NCBI GenBank assembly: GCA_016937695.1
Contig: JAFGWC010000119.1
Location: 1 to 64,000 of the forward strand
Direction of reading: 5' to 3'
From: Bacteroidales bacterium
Lineage (GTDB): Bacteria; Bacteroidota; Bacteroidia; Bacteroidales; NBLH01
DNA: 64,000 bases
Part shown: positions 20,048 through 30,945 of the stretch, in pieces
Numbering within the stretch: position 1 is the first letter of the stretch
How the letters are laid out: each line of letters begins with the position of its first letter
Program-made: the position numbers and the translations under genes
The notes under the pieces: generated by a model
What the model saw: the letters and a program-made list of their open reading frames with translations, nothing else
The model's database searches: none
Told to the model about the DNA's origin: nothing

Positions 20048-21130
<1,083 letters not shown>

Positions 21131-21203
21131 CTAAATTATCCCTTTCTACAACAAATCTATAAAATTTTAAGCTATTTTGCAATTGATGATTCTTGTTTTT
21201 TGA

Positions 21204-21680
21204 TTATTTCTTTTCACCAACATATTTCTGTCTTACTTCACCAGTATAGGTATCAAAAATAATTTTTCTTCCTAGTTTTCCGCCTAAACTTGAACTTAGA
21301 ATCTGTATATTTTCTTCGTGAAGTATGTCTTTTGCAATACGAATATTTCTTTCGCCAATCATAAACTGGTTTATGTTTGTGGCAATTATCTCGGCACCTC
21401 CAAAAATTTTAGCTTTAATGTTAGATCTAGAGCTACCAAGAGCTTCCAACTTTTCAATTATTTTTTTTATTGCAATATTTCCATATCGTGGAGAAGCAAG
21501 TCCTTGTCCATTCCATAGAGGTAACATAAAATGATTCATTCCACCAATTTTTATAACAGGGTCGTATAAACAAACAGCAACACATGAACCTAATATTGTA
21601 GTAATATAGTAAGGTTCTGTATTTGCAAAAATTGCGCCCGGATATAAAAAATGTTTTGGTCTTTCCATATTATGAAACAT
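21204..21680 (-). CDS. cheD: Chemotaxis receptor glutamine deamidase CheD
   Basis: LGSCVAVCLYDP...GGMNHFMLP and GGKLGRKIIFDTYTGEV. Confidence 0.95.
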   Translation of the reverse strand: MFHNMERPKHFLYPGAIFANTEPYYITTILGSCVAVCLYDPVIKIGGMNHFMLPLWNGQGLASPRYGNIAIKKIIEKLEALGSSRSNIKAKIFGGAEIIATNINQFMIGERNIRIAKDILHEENIQILSSSLGGKLGRKIIFDTYTGEVRQKYVGEKK

Positions 21681-22573
21681 TAAAAAATTTCATCATCACC
21701 AAAAATCATTTCATTTCCATCTGCAGAGAAAGAACCTGTTTCTTGATCAGGTTCGGGTATTGATACTGTGAAGACAGTGCCTGAATTTTTTTCGCTTTTT
21801 ATTTTTATATCTCCATCTAAAAAATCTAATATGGCTTTATTAATAGATAAACCTAGACCATGTCCTCTATTTAAAGAATTAATACCACTATCTAATCTTT
21901 TAAATCTATCAAAAATTACTTGCTGATTTTTTTCGGAAATACCAATTCCAAAATCTTGAACTGAAATAAATAACTCTTTTCCTTCGAGCCATCTTCTTAT
22001 AATAATTTTATTGTTTTTACTGAATTTTACAGCATTATCAACCAAATTAGATAAAATAATTCTAAGTTTTTCTGAATCTGTTTTAAATGTAAAACTTCGG
22101 TCTTCACCGTTATCAGTAATAAATTCAAATTTCAATTGTTTTTTTTCAGTTTCAGGAGTGAAAGACTCAATAACAGATTCAATAAGTTGATCGACTTTTA
22201 CATTTGAAACTTCCATAAATAATTCACCTGATTCAATTTCAGCAGCGACAAAAATATTTTTTAGCTGAAAATCAAGATTAAAAGCTTCTGAATGTATTAA
22301 TCTAGCCATTCTATTAACTTTTTCCCAGTCGCCTTCTTTTACAAGCGTGATATTTTTTGAAAGAACAACAATTGAAGTAAAAGGATTAACTATTTCATTC
22401 GTTATATTTGAAATAAAATGGCTTTTAAGTGCTTCAGATTCACCTAGTTTTTTATTAACTTCCTTGAGTTCTTTTGTCAGCTTTTCTAATTTCTCCAATG
22501 AGTTTTTCTTTTCTTCAAACCTAATCTTTAACTCTTCGATTAAAAGTTCGTCAGTTATTTTTATATTACTCAT
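21680..22573 (-). CDS. Histidine-kinase-like protein with Asn replacing the H-box His
   Basis: SHFISNITNEIVNPF in place of the usual S/NxSHEIRTP; HATPase_c boxes LSNLVDNAVKFS, DFGIGIS and GHGLGLS retained. Confidence 0.88.
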   Translation of the reverse strand: MSNIKITDELLIEELKIRFEEKKNSLEKLEKLTKELKEVNKKLGESEALKSHFISNITNEIVNPFTSIVVLSKNITLVKEGDWEKVNRMARLIHSEAFNLDFQLKNIFVAAEIESGELFMEVSNVKVDQLIESVIESFTPETEKKQLKFEFITDNGEDRSFTFKTDSEKLRIILSNLVDNAVKFSKNNKIIIRRWLEGKELFISVQDFGIGISEKNQQVIFDRFKRLDSGINSLNRGHGLGLSINKAILDFLDGDIKIKSEKNSGTVFTVSIPEPDQETGSFSADGNEMIFGDDEIF

Positions 22574-22593
22574 TTTATAATGTTTTAAATATA

Positions 22594-23439
22594 TTATTCT
22601 CTTATATAAATTGTTGGTTTAACTTGCTTTAAAGGAGCTTCAATATTTGTAATTGACTCTGAATGCCCTAAGAAAAAATATCCTCCTGGTTTTAAATTAT
22701 TACATAATTTATTAATAACTTTTTCTTGAGTTTCTCTATCGAAATAAATAAGTACATTTCGGCAAAAAATTATATCAAACTTTTCATTTACAGCATAATG
22801 GTCATCCATAAAATTTAATCTTTGATATTTTGTCTTTTTTCTGAGATTAGCATTAACTTTTACAAGTTTCTTTGATTTATCTTTGCTTTTCATTAAATAC
22901 TTTCTCTTTATATCTATAGGAATCATGGAAACAGCTTCCTCCGGATATACTGCATCAAATGCTTTTTTTAGCACAATTGTTGACAAATCTGTTCCAAAAA
23001 TTGAAAAATCGAATCCTGGATTTTTCGATGCGAATTCGCTTAAAACGATTGCAAGTGTATATACTTCTTGACCGCTGGAACAACCGGCACTCCATAGTTT
23101 AACAAATTTATTTTCCTTATATATTTTAGAAAGCACTTCATTTGTCAAATAATCAAAATGTGTTGCTTCTCTATAAAAATCCGTTTTATTAGTAGAAACA
23201 ACATCCATCATATGAACTACTTCTTCTTGTCCATCTTTACTGAAAACAAAATCTACATATTCCTTAAAAGTATATATTTTTAAAGCTCTAAGTCTTTTCT
23301 GCAACCTACTTTGAAGCATAATTCTTTTAGCAGGAGGCATTTTTATACCATATCTAGTATATATAAATTTACTTAATTTATCAAACTCAATATCAGTAAG
23401 TTTTGCTGCAAATATTTTCTGTAGGTCTATTTCTTCCAT
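22594..23439 (-). CDS. cheR: Chemotaxis protein methyltransferase
   Basis: LWSAGCSSGQEVYTLAI, FDIIFCRNVLIYFD, LGHSESI. Confidence 0.96.
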   Translation of the reverse strand: MEEIDLQKIFAAKLTDIEFDKLSKFIYTRYGIKMPPAKRIMLQSRLQKRLRALKIYTFKEYVDFVFSKDGQEEVVHMMDVVSTNKTDFYREATHFDYLTNEVLSKIYKENKFVKLWSAGCSSGQEVYTLAIVLSEFASKNPGFDFSIFGTDLSTIVLKKAFDAVYPEEAVSMIPIDIKRKYLMKSKDKSKKLVKVNANLRKKTKYQRLNFMDDHYAVNEKFDIIFCRNVLIYFDRETQEKVINKLCNNLKPGGYFFLGHSESITNIEAPLKQVKPTIYIRE

Positions 23440-23457
23440 AAAGAAAAAAAATATTCA

Positions 23458-25638
23458 TTAAAACTTTTCAAATTCATCATCACTATCTTCATTCCCAAGA
23501 TTAAAATTGAATCCTCTTTTTATGTCTTTAGGTTCTTTCGGCAATATTTCTTGCGTTTTAGAAATTTTCTTTTCTATTTTGGATTCAAAATCTATTTTAA
23601 AATCTTTATTTTCTTTTTGTTCCAATTTTTCATCATATTCATTGTCATCTTCAATTTCTTTCATATCAGATTCAAAATCAGAAAAATCATTAATTTCTTC
23701 TTTGTATTTATAATTAGAATTATCTATATCATCTTCATTTTGGGCAAAATCATTATTTTCTTTTTCATTATTTTCTTTATCTAAATTGAAAAACCCAATG
23801 AGCTTAGTTAATTCATCGGCATATGAATTAAGAGCTTCAACGTTCATTGCAAGTTGTTCTGCACTGGCTGCATTTTGTTGAGTAACATTGTTTAATTGTT
23901 GTAAAGCATTGTTAATCTGATCAGTACCAGCTCTTTGCTCAAGACTTGCATTTGTGATTTCTTGAACTAAAAGTGCTGTTTTTTTAATATCCGGTACGAT
24001 TTGGTCTAATAATTCTCCTGATTTTTTTGCACTTATAAAGCTTTTACTTGTTATATCATTAATATCGGCAGCAGCAACTTTTGAATTATCTGCTAATTTA
24101 CCAACTTCTTTAGCAACTACTCCAAAACCTTTTCCATATTGTCCAGCTCTAGCAGCTTCAACAGAAGCATTAAGAGCAAGTATATTTGTTTGAAAAGCAA
24201 TATCTCCAATTATAGATATTTTTTTTGCTATATCACCCATTGCACTGGTTGTAGCAATAACATTTTTACTACTAATTTCAATACCTGTTGCTGATTTTTG
24301 TGCCATAGCATCTGCTAGTTTTGAATTTTCAGCATTTTGTTCGATATTAGCATTAAGCTGCTCCATAGAGGCAGAAACCTCTTCGGTAGAGGAAGCTTGT
24401 TCTGATGCACCTTCGGATAATTTTATTGCTGTTTCAGATAAGGCATTACCAGATTTATATAAGTCTTCTGTTGTTTTTTTAATGTTTTTTATTATTTCAA
24501 AAAACTTATCAACCATTGTTTGCAAGGATTGGCTTAAATCTTCAATTTCATCATTACCGACAACTTCAAAACTCACGTCTAAATTTCCTTGTGCTACTTT
24601 TTCTGCAATTTTGGATAATTTAAAAATTCTGGTTATAATTTTATTTGTATATATATATGCAATTGATAGCGCAAGAAGTAAAATTAATGAAACTAACCCT
24701 ATTCTTTTTCCAAGTAACCAATTTGTGTCTTTAAGTACTGATTTTTCAGGTACTTTTATTATAACATACCACGCTTTGTCAACTCCTTCAAAATTAACAG
24801 GAACTGTAAATTTAAAATCTCCTTCTTCGAGAACTTCAATTTCATTAAAGTTCTCGAATAAATCATCTTTTTGATATCCATTTATGATATCAGTGATATT
24901 TTTTCCAACATTGGCTTTATTTTTATTATCTGCATTTATAATTCCACCGTCAGAAACAATAAATATTTGGGCTGCTCCATTAAATAGTTCAGTGTTTGAA
25001 ATATAGTTTTGAATCCAATCAATTGAAATATCAACACCTAATACTCCTGAAATTTCATTGTTACTATATATAGCCTTGCCGTATGAAATCATTAGTAAAG
25101 AATCTCCTTCAAGAAAATCTTTATAGGGCTCAGTAAAAATTTGTCCATTATGTTGTTTTAAATAAGAAACAACATCAGATTTAAAATTGTAGTTCCATCT
25201 ATCTAAATATGAATAAACACCTTTTTTATTTATATATTTAAATGAAGTTAAAGTTTCATTAGTTCCACTATTATCAATTTTATTAAAATGATTAGGTAAA
25301 AAATTCAAAAAAACTGTCAGGACTTGTTTGTTTTCAATCAAAAATTTATTTTCCATTTGGTGTATTTGTTCTAAATCAAAATTACTTACACCATTTTCAT
25401 CCATTGTAGAAGACAATATATCTGTAAAAGTATTTAGTGCTTTAAAAACCTGATTTAAGTCTTGTCCAATGCCTTTAGAATAAATTTCAGCATTAGTTTT
25501 TGCATTAGTTTTTGCAAGTATTATTGCATCATCTCTCAACTTTAATGAAGAAATAATTATAACAATTATTATTGGAACTAAAACACTTAAGCCTATTATT
25601 GATATTAATTTCGTTCTTATTGAACCTGTATTTTTCAT
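23458..25638 (-). CDS. Methyl-accepting chemotaxis protein (Cache-type sensor, HAMP, signalling domain)
   Basis: Two TM segments; HAMP; hairpin tip IGDIAFQTNILALNASVEAARAGQYGKGFGVVAKEV; long acidic tail ending DDEFEKF. Confidence 0.95.
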   Translation of the reverse strand: MKNTGSIRTKLISIIGLSVLVPIIIVIIISSLKLRDDAIILAKTNAKTNAEIYSKGIGQDLNQVFKALNTFTDILSSTMDENGVSNFDLEQIHQMENKFLIENKQVLTVFLNFLPNHFNKIDNSGTNETLTSFKYINKKGVYSYLDRWNYNFKSDVVSYLKQHNGQIFTEPYKDFLEGDSLLMISYGKAIYSNNEISGVLGVDISIDWIQNYISNTELFNGAAQIFIVSDGGIINADNKNKANVGKNITDIINGYQKDDLFENFNEIEVLEEGDFKFTVPVNFEGVDKAWYVIIKVPEKSVLKDTNWLLGKRIGLVSLILLLALSIAYIYTNKIITRIFKLSKIAEKVAQGNLDVSFEVVGNDEIEDLSQSLQTMVDKFFEIIKNIKKTTEDLYKSGNALSETAIKLSEGASEQASSTEEVSASMEQLNANIEQNAENSKLADAMAQKSATGIEISSKNVIATTSAMGDIAKKISIIGDIAFQTNILALNASVEAARAGQYGKGFGVVAKEVGKLADNSKVAAADINDITSKSFISAKKSGELLDQIVPDIKKTALLVQEITNASLEQRAGTDQINNALQQLNNVTQQNAASAEQLAMNVEALNSYADELTKLIGFFNLDKENNEKENNDFAQNEDDIDNSNYKYKEEINDFSDFESDMKEIEDDNEYDEKLEQKENKDFKIDFESKIEKKISKTQEILPKEPKDIKRGFNFNLGNEDSDDEFEKF

Positions 25639-25687
25639 TATATTTTTTTGTTAAATTTTTGTTTCAAATATCATCCTTGTTAATTCA

Positions 25688-26182
25688 CTATGTTTCAGGC
25701 ATATCATCAAGAAGCATAGATGCATGATCGAATGCAAAAATTTTATCCATATCAAGAATCATTATAAATTTATCTTTTGATTTTAAAAGTCCTGTAATAA
25801 ATTCTGATTTATATTTAGTTCCTACACTTAACGGCGGTTGAATTTCATTTTCTTTAACTTCTATTACTTCCTCAACAGAGTCAACTATTGCACCAACTTC
25901 AACCATTTCATTATCGATAAGTACTTCTAAAACAAGAATACATGTTTCTTTTGTATTTTCAGATATAATTTCATTAAATTTCATTCTTATATCGATAACA
26001 CCAAGAACACTACCTCTAAGGTTAATAACGCCTTTTAGAACATCACTAGATTTAGGGACTTTAGTTATAGGCACTAATTCCAAAATATTTAAAACCTTAC
26101 TAACATGTACAGCAAAAAACTCATCGCTTAATTTAAACGAAAGGTAAGAATTCGTTAATTGATCAATATCTTCATCTATCAT
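25688..26182 (-). CDS. cheW: Chemotaxis coupling protein
   Basis: CheW motifs VPITKVPKSSDVLKGVINLRGSVLGVIDIR. Confidence 0.93.
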   Translation of the reverse strand: MIDEDIDQLTNSYLSFKLSDEFFAVHVSKVLNILELVPITKVPKSSDVLKGVINLRGSVLGVIDIRMKFNEIISENTKETCILVLEVLIDNEMVEVGAIVDSVEEVIEVKENEIQPPLSVGTKYKSEFITGLLKSKDKFIMILDMDKIFAFDHASMLLDDMPET

Positions 26183-26193
26183 AATACTAATAT

Positions 26194-28218
26194 CTAATTT
26201 TTAAATGAAAATTCATGTATAATTTTATTTGTGTCTAAAACTAAAGCAATAGTTCCATCACCAAGAATAGTTGCACCAGAAATTATTTCATGGTTTTTGT
26301 ATAATTTCCCAAGAGGTTTAAGCACTGCCTGATATTCACCTATAACATCATCAACGGCTAATCCTATTTTTTTATCTTCATATTTTACAATAACCATTTG
26401 CTCAACTTCAAGAGGTTCTGTGTCAATTTCAAATTCATCTCTTAAATAATAAAAAGGTATTTGTTCGCCATCGATAATAATTATATTATTGTATGCTTTT
26501 TTAAAATCTTGATGATTAACTGCATAAATTTTATTTACAAGATTTAAAGGCATAACATATTTGGTATTTCCTATCATAACTAACAAACCATCAATAATTG
26601 AAAGCGTTAATGGAAGTTTTATAGTAATAGTTGTCCCTACGTTTGTTTTTGAATCTAATTCTACAGTGCCTCTAATTTCTTCAATTTTTCTTTTAACTAC
26701 ATCCATTCCAACTCCTCTTCCTGACACATCGGTAACATTTTCAGCAGTTGAAAATCCGGGCAGAAAAATAATATCTAAAAGTTCTCTTTCTGTTAATTTG
26801 CTATCATGCTGAATTAATTCTTTGCTTATTGCTTTTTGCCTTACTTTGGCTAGGTCAATTCCTTTTCCATCGTCTTGAATTTTAATAACTACATTTGCTC
26901 CGGAATAATATGCTTTTAAATATATCATTCCTTTAAGTGTTTTCCCTAATTTCACTCTTTCTTTTTCAGATTCAATTCCGTGATCTACACTGTTTCTGAT
27001 TATATGCATTAATGGGTCTGTAAGGCCTTGTATTAATGTTTTATCTAGCTCTGTTTCAGCGCCTTCTGTAATAAAATCTATGTTTTTACCAAATTCTGTA
27101 GATAAATCTCTAATTAACCTATGGAAACGCGTTAACATTGTTTCTATTGGGATAAGAGATATATTGAAAGCGGTGTCTCTTAATTGTCTTGTAATATTTT
27201 CAATATTTTCGGCAAGTTGATTAAGTTCTTGAACTTTATTTTCTTCAACAAAAAGGCTCAAACTTGCTTGTGAAGTAACTAGTTCACTAACTAAATTCAT
27301 TAACTCATCTATTTTATCGGATGAAACTCTGATGCTTGAAATTACATTTTCTTTTGTAAATGTACTCAGTTTTTCAGTAACTGTATCTATTTTATTTTTT
27401 TTCTCTTTTTCGTAATTATTAATAAAGGGACTTAATATACTTAAATCAAAATGAGATTTTTCATCAAAAAGGTCTTCTATTTTATCTAAAATTTCACTTT
27501 CAGATAAAATATCAAAATTTGCAATATTTGAAATTTCTAGTTCACTTTCGTCTTCAACAAAAATAAAAACATCTTGAATTGATGCAACTGGTTCTTTAGT
27601 AACTAAAAATACTTCCCATGAAGTGTAGCATTTACTGAAATTAAATTTTGAAAGAAGAGGGATTTTTTGAGTTCGAGTATATACATTACAATTTCCAATA
27701 GTATTTAATTCATCTAAAAGATATAAAGGGTTGGTTCCGTTATCCATAATGGATTCATTGGGTCCAAAATAAATATAGAATGTTTGAACACTTTCTTCTT
27801 TTTCGGTTTCAGGGATTTGTGTTTCAATAATTTTTTTATCGTGTTTTTTTAAAATTCCTTCAACTTTGCTCAATAAAATATTATGATTTTTACTAATTTG
27901 TTCATTTTTTAAAGCTTCAGGATCTAGTAAATTTCTTAAATGGTCTACCGATGAGAAAGTAATACTGAGTAATTCTTCAGTTACTAATAAATTCCCATTT
28001 CTGATTTCATCATAAATTGTTTCAAGATTGTGTGTAAAATTACTGATTTCATCAAATCCAAACATTCCTCCTCCTCCTTTTAAAGAGTGCATAATCCTAA
28101 AAACAGAGGCAACTATCTCTGTATCTTTAGGTTGTTTTTCAAGAGAAAGTAAAGCTTGTTCCAAATCATTAATTAAATCGGTAGCTTCTTCAATAAATTT
28201 TTTTTGAAAATTATCCAT
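26194..28218 (-). CDS. cheA: Chemotaxis histidine kinase
   Basis: Hpt RIMHSLKGGGGMFGFDEI; HATPase HIIRNSVDHGIE, DDGKGID, GRGVGMDVVK; C-terminal CheW-like domain. Confidence 0.97.
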   Translation of the reverse strand: MDNFQKKFIEEATDLINDLEQALLSLEKQPKDTEIVASVFRIMHSLKGGGGMFGFDEISNFTHNLETIYDEIRNGNLLVTEELLSITFSSVDHLRNLLDPEALKNEQISKNHNILLSKVEGILKKHDKKIIETQIPETEKEESVQTFYIYFGPNESIMDNGTNPLYLLDELNTIGNCNVYTRTQKIPLLSKFNFSKCYTSWEVFLVTKEPVASIQDVFIFVEDESELEISNIANFDILSESEILDKIEDLFDEKSHFDLSILSPFINNYEKEKKNKIDTVTEKLSTFTKENVISSIRVSSDKIDELMNLVSELVTSQASLSLFVEENKVQELNQLAENIENITRQLRDTAFNISLIPIETMLTRFHRLIRDLSTEFGKNIDFITEGAETELDKTLIQGLTDPLMHIIRNSVDHGIESEKERVKLGKTLKGMIYLKAYYSGANVVIKIQDDGKGIDLAKVRQKAISKELIQHDSKLTERELLDIIFLPGFSTAENVTDVSGRGVGMDVVKRKIEEIRGTVELDSKTNVGTTITIKLPLTLSIIDGLLVMIGNTKYVMPLNLVNKIYAVNHQDFKKAYNNIIIIDGEQIPFYYLRDEFEIDTEPLEVEQMVIVKYEDKKIGLAVDDVIGEYQAVLKPLGKLYKNHEIISGATILGDGTIALVLDTNKIIHEFSFKN

Positions 28219-28307: not shown

Positions 28308-28673
28308 TTATCTCATAACTTTATTAATTGCAGCTAAAAGTTTGGCTGGCACAAAAGGTTTAATAATCCAACCGGTAGCACCTGCATCTTTAGCTTCCAT
28401 TTTTTTATCACGTTGCGATTCTGTTGTTAAAAATAATATAGGAATTCTTGTATAATCATTAATTTTCCTTACTTCTCGAATAAGTTCTATGCCATTCATA
28501 TTTGGCATATGCAAGTCTGTAAGTAATAAATCAATAATTTGTCCATCGAAATGCTTTATTGCATCTTGTCCATCGATTGCAACAATTATATTATAACCTG
28601 CATTTTCTAAAGTAAAACTTACTACTTCGCGAATACTTTCTGAATCATCAACAATTAAAATAGTTTTAGCCAT
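28308..28673 (-). CDS. cheY: Chemotaxis response regulator
   Basis: ILIVDDSESIRE, LLTDLHMPNMNG, FLTTES, GWIIKPF. Confidence 0.93.
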   Translation of the reverse strand: MAKTILIVDDSESIREVVSFTLENAGYNIIVAIDGQDAIKHFDGQIIDLLLTDLHMPNMNGIELIREVRKINDYTRIPILFLTTESQRDKKMEAKDAGATGWIIKPFVPAKLLAAINKVMR

Positions 28674-28707: not shown

Positions 28708-29028
28708 TTATAGAGATTTTATAATACTTGTTAAGCCTGAAATTTGTAATAGTTCTAATATATCTTTTGATAGATCAATATTAAATGAAATCTTTTTATT
28801 GTGTGAAATACAAGTGTTTTTTAATGAAACAAGAAGTTGAATTGTTGCCAAATCGCAAACAGTAACATCATTAATATTTATCACAAGATTTTCATAATCT
28901 TTTTCTGCAGTTTTCAGATTTTTAACTACTTCTTTTAAATTATTAACACCCAAATCTCCACCCATAAAAATTTGTACTTTTTTATCTCCTTTTTTTGGCG
29001 CTTGAATTCTAAAATTAATATCTTTCAT
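28708..29028 (-). CDS. STAS-domain protein in the chemotaxis operon
   Basis: Fold-typical pattern VININDVTVCDLATIQLLVSLKNTC...LLQISGLTSIIK. Confidence 0.75.
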   Translation of the reverse strand: MKDINFRIQAPKKGDKKVQIFMGGDLGVNNLKEVVKNLKTAEKDYENLVININDVTVCDLATIQLLVSLKNTCISHNKKISFNIDLSKDILELLQISGLTSIIKSL

Positions 29029-29148: not shown

Positions 29149-30945
29149 TCAAAAAAATTCAATTTCATCATCATTTTCAGAGTCAAGATCTTCGTTTAAT
29201 ACATTACCATGAATAATCCTTTGGCTTTCCATAGTATATCTTTCTTTTATTTTATCAAGACTTTCATGTGACTCTTCTAGTTTTGTAACTGAAGCGTCAT
29301 CTCTTATAGTCAAATATATATTATTTAATTCAAGTATTATTTCTTCAATAACTTTTTCAAAAAAGTCATAATATTTTACTTTTTCTATTGAACTTTGTAT
29401 GTCTAGTGCTAATTTACTACCTAATTGTCCGTTTTGTTTTAAGATATTTTCAATGCTCGAGTTATTTTCATTTAAAATATTTACAATAGAATATATATTT
29501 TCAGATAATTGCTTTAAATTAGATTTAAAATTATTTTCTTTATAAGCATTACTTAAAGTTTCTAATAGATATAATTCATCATAATTTTTCTCAAAATATT
29601 TTTTTGTTTGACTTAATTCTTCCTCGATGTTAAGATTAATTTCAACGATTTGTTTTTTTAATTTTTTCAATTCAGGATATACACTAGCATCTCTGCATAA
29701 TTCTTCAATTATTTCATCGAAATTAGTCTTGAAATTTTTTCTGCTTTCACAAGTTTTTTCCAGATCATTTTTTATATCAATAAAAGTATCTTTTACATTA
29801 CTGATTTTTATATCAAATTCTTCACCATTAATTGCAAATTGATTAATTAATTCTACTGATTTTTCTAATTTGTTTTCAATTTCTCTAAAATGTGTTATTC
29901 CAAAAATAGGATTATGCCCTGAAAAAGAAGTGCACATTGATGAAATTACTTTCATATCTTCACCAATTTCCATAAAATTTTTAGTGATTTTTTCAATTGC
30001 ATCCTGATATTCTTGATTTGTGTATATAAGTTGAGCAACTTGTATTCCGGCGATATCTCTAATTTTTAAAAATTTCTTAGTTTGCTCAGTAAGTTCAGTT
30101 TTTTTATCTTTATAATCAAAGTCGTTGAGTTCATCAATTATCTCTTTATGAGTTTGCTGAACATGTTCCATTTTTTGTCTGATAATATCATGAAATTGTA
30201 AATTTGTAATAATTTTGCTTACATTTTCAAAATAGTTTTCAGTTTTTTTTGCTAAAATAGGCATTTGAACAGATGCTTCCTGATGTTTAGCTGTTAAAAT
30301 TGTAACACTTGATTTAATTTGCTCTAAAATTGCTTCAAGAGTATAGTTTTGTTGCTCTTTAAACTCATTAAAAAAATTCAGAACTGACTTAACAATTACT
30401 TTTACTTTATTATTCTTTTCATTAAAAGAATCATATGTATCTTTTATTATTTTAATTTCTATAATTACTTTATCAATTTTTTGAATTATTTCTGTTTTAT
30501 CAGGATTGTAAGAAAGATTTAACTTTAAGTTTGCAAACAAAAAATTAAGAGTCATCAAGTTTTGATTGAAGTTCTTAACCGGGATAAACATGGCGTTAAG
30601 AGTGACTTGCATTGAATCTAATATTTTAGCCGCTTTTATAACGCTATTTAAAAAATCATCAATTTGAAGTTTTAAACCTAAATGAAATGAATCTAGCTTT
30701 TTCAATAAGTAATTTCTATCTTTTCCAGCTAATATTTCAAAAAGTTTATTTGCGTTTCCTGAAATATCATTGGCAATTTTAGAATTATCTTTCAAATTTG
30801 AATTTAATAGTAAGAAATCCTTTGAAGAGGATTCGTTTAATGCAGTAATCTTAACATCAATGTCTGATAATAGAATAATGATTTCTTTTATCGAATCCCT
30901 ATTGAGAGAAAATCTATAATTACTAGTCTTCATATCATCGCCCAT
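29149..30945 (-). CDS. Helical chemotaxis-operon protein; candidate CheZ-like CheY-P phosphatase
   Basis: Soluble helical protein; motif LQFHDIIRQKMEHV (Asp253-xxx-Gln257) resembles the CheZ FQDLTGQ motif; acidic C-terminus NDDEIEFF. Confidence 0.5.
   Translation of the reverse strand: MGDDMKTSNYRFSLNRDSIKEIIILLSDIDVKITALNESSSKDFLLLNSNLKDNSKIANDISGNANKLFEILAGKDRNYLLKKLDSFHLGLKLQIDDFLNSVIKAAKILDSMQVTLNAMFIPVKNFNQNLMTLNFLFANLKLNLSYNPDKTEIIQKIDKVIIEIKIIKDTYDSFNEKNNKVKVIVKSVLNFFNEFKEQQNYTLEAILEQIKSSVTILTAKHQEASVQMPILAKKTENYFENVSKIITNLQFHDIIRQKMEHVQQTHKEIIDELNDFDYKDKKTELTEQTKKFLKIRDIAGIQVAQLIYTNQEYQDAIEKITKNFMEIGEDMKVISSMCTSFSGHNPIFGITHFREIENKLEKSVELINQFAINGEEFDIKISNVKDTFIDIKNDLEKTCESRKNFKTNFDEIIEELCRDASVYPELKKLKKQIVEINLNIEEELSQTKKYFEKNYDELYLLETLSNAYKENNFKSNLKQLSENIYSIVNILNENNSSIENILKQNGQLGSKLALDIQSSIEKVKYYDFFEKVIEEIILELNNIYLTIRDDASVTKLEESHESLDKIKERYTMESQRIIHGNVLNEDLDSENDDEIEFF

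Follow-up and report, generated by a model that had tools for sequence, protein, structure and literature searches.

Among the chemotaxis proteins that come closest to the one analysed here are CheZ, which is characterised by the motif context AXXFQ-DXXXQ (PMC7750401), and CheT of S. meliloti. PMC12654446 (citing doi 10.1111/mmi.15303) describes CheT as a CheY phosphatase of the DXXXQ type that shows no significant homology to any known protein of chemotaxis, accepts just one of two CheYs as substrate and binds CheR, and that sets a precedent for the enzyme proposed here. Many Bacteroidota possess CheA and CheY but no known CheY phosphatase. In the window, by which we mean the whole stretch of 64,000 nucleotides that was analysed, a minus-strand chemotaxis run opens with the gene of a helical protein that we call ZL (Table 1). 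We consider it likely that ZL is a DxxxQ CheY-P phosphatase, which would employ the CheZ mechanism on a new, receptor-derived architecture, and it is probably the missing chemotaxis switch-off enzyme of these non-flagellated Bacteroidales. CheC and CheX, which would fill the same role, are unlike ZL in fold and motifs, and ZL itself matches neither PF04509 nor PF13690. A literature search, thin on subscription journals, retrieved no paper describing the ZL family.

The locus and its conserved DxxxQ helix

The genes of the run follow each other in the order ZL, STAS, CheY, CheA, CheW, MCP, CheR, histidine kinase, CheD and CheB, of which CheW, CheR and CheB were assigned from their sequences and from phmmer matches in relatives. 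An earlier note on this DNA had proposed ZL as a divergent CheZ, and its reading frame, the codons that it gave for Asp253 and Gln257, and the C-terminal NDDEIEFF were all confirmed. So was its statement that the operon has no recognisable CheC, CheX or CheZ: Pfam searches for PF04509, PF13690 and PF04344 found none of the three in the whole genome. The operon also encodes a CheD, which the note left unmentioned. ZL belongs to no Pfam family and has no NCBIfam match of note.

Table 1. Coordinates of ZL, its motifs and the other genes of the chemotaxis run
Feature	Position in window	Strand	Basis or remark
ZL, 598-aa helical protein, candidate CheY-P phosphatase	29149-30945	-	ATG-start ORF
Conserved block NLQFHDIIRQKMEHVQQTHKEI, residues 248-269	30139-30204	-	contains the family's most conserved stretch
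Asp253 codon	30187-30189	-	aligns to E. coli CheZ Asp143
Gln257 codon	30175-30177	-	aligns to E. coli CheZ Gln147
Second-unit motif counterpart, residues 523-545, VKYYDFFEKVIEEI...	29311-29379	-	degenerate copy; internal-repeat hhalign
C-terminal tail DDEIEFF, residues 592-598	29152-29172	-	last Phe invariant, 59/59 homologues
STAS-domain protein, CheS-like position	28708-29028	-	PF13466 over cut-off; conserved between ZL and CheY
CheY, presumed ZL substrate	28308-28673	-	PF00072
CheA kinase	26194-28218	-	PF01627, PF02895, PF02518, PF01584
CheW, MCP, CheR, histidine kinase, CheD, CheB	20048-26182	-	

The DxxxQ motif alone is uninformative, because about 1.8 copies are expected by chance in a protein of this composition and ZL holds one; it is the conservation of the motif, and not its presence, that exceeds chance. 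Sixty homologous loci were collected, which left 59 after removal of one duplicate, and Asp253 and Gln257 are invariant in all of them, as is Phe598, with Glu596 kept in 58. As some of these rows are near-duplicates, the count was repeated on 39 sequences with 21-60% identity to the window protein, in which Q250, D253, I254, I255, Q257, H261, L306, N310 and F598 are invariant. In a further set of 26 sequences, which extends to other classes with members of only 15-19% identity, Q250, D253, Q257 and H261 are the sole invariant residues, F598 being unable to score because five rows end one residue short. No other 13-mer of ZL is as well conserved as residues 249-261, and mean pairwise identity reaches 75% in residues 245-267 vs 33% overall. 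The earlier note had named loss of the two residues in orthologues as a refutation of its reading; they are kept there without exception and inside the most conserved block.

We infer the binding of phosphorylated CheY, the catalysis, the roles of the second half and of the tail, and the output of the system, and picture them as follows. The helix L-Q-[FY]-[HQ]-D-I-I-R-Q-K is the presumed docking surface for phosphorylated CheY. Asp253 would position the complex, while Gln257 would extend into the active site of CheY and align the water for its attack, which would end the signal made by CheA. The degenerate second half, mostly with Asp and with Lys in place of Gln, probably serves dimerisation or docking to the array, and the acidic tail, flexible and closed by a Phe, may offer a peptide on which partners of the CheR/CheD type, or CheY, would dock.

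Relation to CheZ and CheT

Compared directly with six proteobacterial CheZs by hhalign (all E-values given here being those of single pairs), ZL gave no significant similarity (score 14.4 vs shuffles up to 14.3), although one alignment brought D and Q into register; the wider ZL superfamily reached only a marginal result. CheZ is not among the Pfam families shown for 39 ZL members, and the window protein has no PF04344 match; two deep members (L064, L068) show weak, sub-threshold CheZ profile matches over the motif. The connection runs through short proteins of other Bacteroidota, here called L085-type, which are 224-238 aa long and adjoin CheY. L085 itself scores 31.3 bits with the Pfam CheZ model (cut-off 30.7) and three relatives score 22-26 bits. 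In hhalign, L085-type proteins match the CheZ profile with a score of 42.9 (E 8e-6; reversed control 21.4), and residues 145-345 of ZL match the L085-type proteins with a score of 52.3 (E 9e-8), compared with at most 18.5 in 40 column shuffles and 16.1 for the reversed profile, again with D and Q in register. Judging from these profile comparisons, ZL appears to be related to CheZ by bridged homology, both steps of which are significant.

The motifs form a graded series, from FQDLTGQ in CheZ through LQFQDITTQ (L061), LQFHDIVSQ (L085) and IQFHDITRQ (L064) to LQFHDIIRQ in the window. The AXXFQ-DXXXQ context is complete in L061 and, save for His in place of Gln, in L085; in the window protein Asn replaces Ala and His replaces Gln. 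ZL resembles CheZ in the register of D and Q, the aromatic residue two positions before the Asp, its all-helical nature, a gene near CheY and a tail that ends in Phe. It differs in its length (598 aa vs 206-262 aa in the CheZs fetched), its tandem units, the lack of a Pfam match, the NLQFHD that replaces the AXXFQ-D context, and a tail that is closer to those of receptors. L085-type proteins share the motif (ALQFHDIVSQKLVHV vs NLQFHDIIRQKMEHV) and the strong profile match with ZL, but consist of one unit in which no MCP hairpin was found, end in DDIDDLFG or DDIDDLFN, and, in L085, reach the Pfam CheZ cut-off. The short CheZ-like proteins beside CheY that lie near or just above this cut-off are L085:1282-1953 and those of L111-L113.

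In CheZ, a hairpin of two helices dimerises to give a four-helix bundle. AlphaFold models of the whole ZL protein and of a fragment had mean pLDDT values of 77 and 81 and pTM values of 0.54 and 0.40; with this low pTM, the region of the motif is modelled as helices 148-274 and 287-342. Foldseek of these models against the PDB returned only generic long coiled coils and no CheZ. A profile search of PDB sequences, headed by designed coiled coils and then a methyl-accepting protein, was set aside as composition bias.

The CheZ-like reading of Asp253 and Gln257 is well supported by their invariance, by the CheY/CheA neighbourhood and by the homology chain via L085-type proteins. The name of divergent CheZ, however, falls short, and ZL is no classical CheZ: the kinship would run by way of the L085-type profiles, the direct comparison that the earlier note had proposed was not significant, the models gave generic coiled coils, and the protein as a whole reads as a receptor-hairpin tandem. 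Because the CheZ family profile does not recognise ZL and direct similarity was not significant, we do not file ZL as a CheZ member.

For CheT, we picked a presumed ORF by its position and DxxxQ motif: 124 aa long, it lies after CheD in Sinorhizobium (L118:7505-7879), carries LQGIDLAVQK and ends in DFEAF. CheT shares with ZL the DXXXQ motif, a place in a che operon that also encodes CheD and a STAS protein, and a tail ending in Phe, to which the presumed ORF adds LQxxDxxxQK. The difference lies in the 124 aa of the ORF read and in the absence of significant profile similarity to ZL (score 9.1 vs shuffles up to 12.8), the motif alone being in register.

Receptor likeness, the tail and rival readings

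The earlier note had likened the tail to the CheY-binding peptide of CheZ; its acidic, Phe-ending sequence falls only little short of the motif in conservation, and the argument for CheZ-type binding is weak, a CheY-binding role being doubtful because MCP, CheD and CheT tails are similar. MCPs encoded together with ZL have C-termini of the form acidic-[FY]E[KDR]F (DDEFEKF, DDYEKF, DNEYEDF), and the CheD of Sinorhizobium (L118:6923-7474) ends in SIEFF, the last four letters of which, IEFF, are those of the window's ZL. Together with the DFEAF of the presumed CheT and the binding of CheR by S. meliloti CheT (PMC12654446), these endings suggest a receptor-type pentapeptide that would dock CheR (or CheB/CheD). 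The tails of alphaproteobacterial relatives, DDFDDGLF or DEDLFEDALF, are closer to that of CheZ and speak against it. From the sequences we hold CheR/CheD docking and CheY binding about equal, so that docking of CheR in place of CheZ-type binding would be an even call. Such docking is compatible with ZL as a phosphatase, as it concerns the tail only.

Several proteins of one operon share acidic tails with a final Phe. The MCP of the window (23458-25638) ends in DDEFEKF, much like ZL, and the orphan histidine kinase that comes after CheR and before CheD (21680-22573) ends in DDEIF, which is EEEIF or EEETF in the relatives compared (L032, L033, L049-L052).

ZL is internally repeated: hhalign matches its second half to its first (score 49.6, E 1e-6) and puts D527 and K531 on D253 and Q257. 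This second pair is D/K in 40 and D/Q in 6 of the 59 homologues, and only the first unit reliably retains DxxxQ. The MCP signalling domain of Pfam (PF00015) is recognised above its cut-off in five members outside the order (L064-L068) and not in the window protein, and in a family alignment with deep relatives both halves display the MCP hairpin pattern. Apparent single units occur in L069, in L080 and in a Methylobacterium protein of L116, which combine an MCP hairpin with an IQFQDVxRQ helix and an IELF tail. Because of the internal repeat, the MCP-matching relatives and these single-unit proteins, the window's ZL is best read as a putative tandem of two coiled-coil units that are related to MCP hairpins and whose signature has eroded in its clade. 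With MCPs it would have in common the hairpins recognisable in deeper members and the acidic Phe-ending tail; it differs from them in having no recognised sensor domain, an eroded hairpin signature in the window's clade and an added DxxxQ helix.

This likeness also lends itself to an explanation without catalysis, in which ZL would be a soluble component of the chemosensory array, receptor-like or a scaffold, and L-Q-F-x-D-x-x-R-Q a structural or docking motif for CheA, CheW or CheY. The MCP matches of L064-L068, the hairpin-plus-motif proteins of L069 and L116, the receptor-like tail, and a conserved block that exceeds D and Q, with Q250 and H261 invariant too, would all fit such a protein. 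We nevertheless regard it as unlikely, since D and Q are strictly invariant despite the eroded hairpin signature in the window's clade, and since ZL closely matches the L085-type proteins, which match CheZ and show no MCP hairpin.

A ZL that is a DxxxQ phosphatase could alternatively serve another receiver, such as the extra CheY-like proteins that are often encoded upstream or CheB, or could discriminate between two CheYs. A second CheY-like gene lies near ZL in many loci, and CheT, according to PMC12654446, is selective for one CheY out of two. In the window and in L031-L034, which are its closest relatives, the run holds a single CheY, two genes downstream of ZL, and we think this variant quite improbable. 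A DxxxQ that arose by chance in some unrelated protein of helices, as the 1.8 copies expected would allow, is refuted by the invariance of the motif in all homologues and its register with L085-type proteins and CheZ, and has next to no likelihood.

The CheYs that we presume to be the partners of a ZL phosphatase keep D13, D57, T87 and K109 (E. coli numbering) in 52 of 52 cases and D12 in 51. Lys95 is constant in all 52. Position 92, which pairs with Asp143 of CheZ in E. coli, varies and holds no conserved Lys, a point against the proposed CheZ mechanism. A His two residues after the phospho-Asp (43/52) and a constant Trp106 were also seen in these CheYs.

Distribution, neighbourhood and output

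Within the order, 33 of 198 genomes carry ZL and 60 carry the CheA dimerisation domain (PF02895). All 33 ZL genomes fall among these 60 (hypergeometric P 2e-21, uncorrected for phylogeny). Known phosphatases are rare in the same 198 genomes, with CheZ over the cut-off in none, CheC in 2 and CheX in 3. Two genomes (G162, G176) have CheA and CheX-like proteins and no ZL, which looks like a swap of phosphatases, although these are only two cases and G035 carries both. ZL is absent from 27 of the 60 CheA genomes, 25 of which are also without a detected CheX; a phosphatase is therefore either not always needed or still unrecognised there. A search of the ZL-less CheA genomes with a wider profile gave no match that covers the motif block; the matches, nearly all in the MCP-hairpin region of the second half, are ordinary MCPs and were rejected.

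In about 40 of 41 loci with downstream sequence (some of them duplicates, and the rumen clade left out), the next genes after ZL are those of STAS and/or CheY, usually with CheA behind them, and the order ZL-STAS-CheY-CheA recurs in the other-class relatives L064, L065, L067 and L068. In a rumen clade of Bacteroidales (L035-L048, L053, L058, L059) ZL lies away from the STAS-CheY-CheA run. It adjoins CheW in some members of this clade, and D, Q and the tail are kept.

FliG was not found in the genome of the window or in the other ZL genomes of the order, with the exception of one match in G054, which has 39.7 bits in a 517-aa frame compared with 128-141 bits for real FliG. GldM is present in 32 of the 33 ZL genomes of the order. 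Bacteroidales carriers without a normal FliG and with GldM indicate a non-flagellar output of CheY, perhaps the gliding or type 9 secretion motor; this says only that the usual flagellar switch would not be the CheY target in these carriers. ZL is not tied to gliding, because GldM is almost equally common in CheA genomes without ZL. Outside the class, FliG is present in four of five tandem-ZL carriers tested (absent in G353) and in the tested carriers of single-unit and L085-type proteins. The GldM-bearing genomes G013, G054, G073, G130 and G162 encode proteins of roughly 515-535 aa that match FliG_C with 40-57 bits and are not typical FliG.

With the window's ZL as query, viral contigs and plasmids yielded nothing; tblastn with the deep member L068 retrieved relatives on alphaproteobacterial plasmids, which retain QxxDxxRQ and are located in che clusters. 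The gene of the relative in Shinella (L114:3461-5185) is oriented divergently beside STAS-CheY-CheA-CheW, and those of Methylosinus and Novosphingobium come after MCP, CheW, CheR and CheB; their motifs are QIGDITRQRIEH, QIGDNTRQRVEH and QVGDSTRQRLEH. Relatives occur in flagellated Bacteroidota and in Alphaproteobacteria. We tentatively suggest, at somewhat less than an even chance, that ZL may stand for a widespread, unrecognised CheY-P phosphatase family built from chemoreceptor hairpins, which would operate in STAS-CheY-CheA systems of Bacteroidota and Alphaproteobacteria, also where there is no flagellum, and whose single-unit proteins with MCP hairpin and DxxxQ helix suggest an evolutionary link between CheZ and receptors. 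The family offers a testable candidate for signal termination in its carriers, which make up 33 of the 60 CheA genomes sampled, and would connect CheZ-type catalysis with receptor-derived coiled coils. It would also correct the annotation of relatives as 'type VII secretion target' or 'methyl-accepting chemotaxis protein', the former of which is carried by the Shinella relative and is probably a misannotation.
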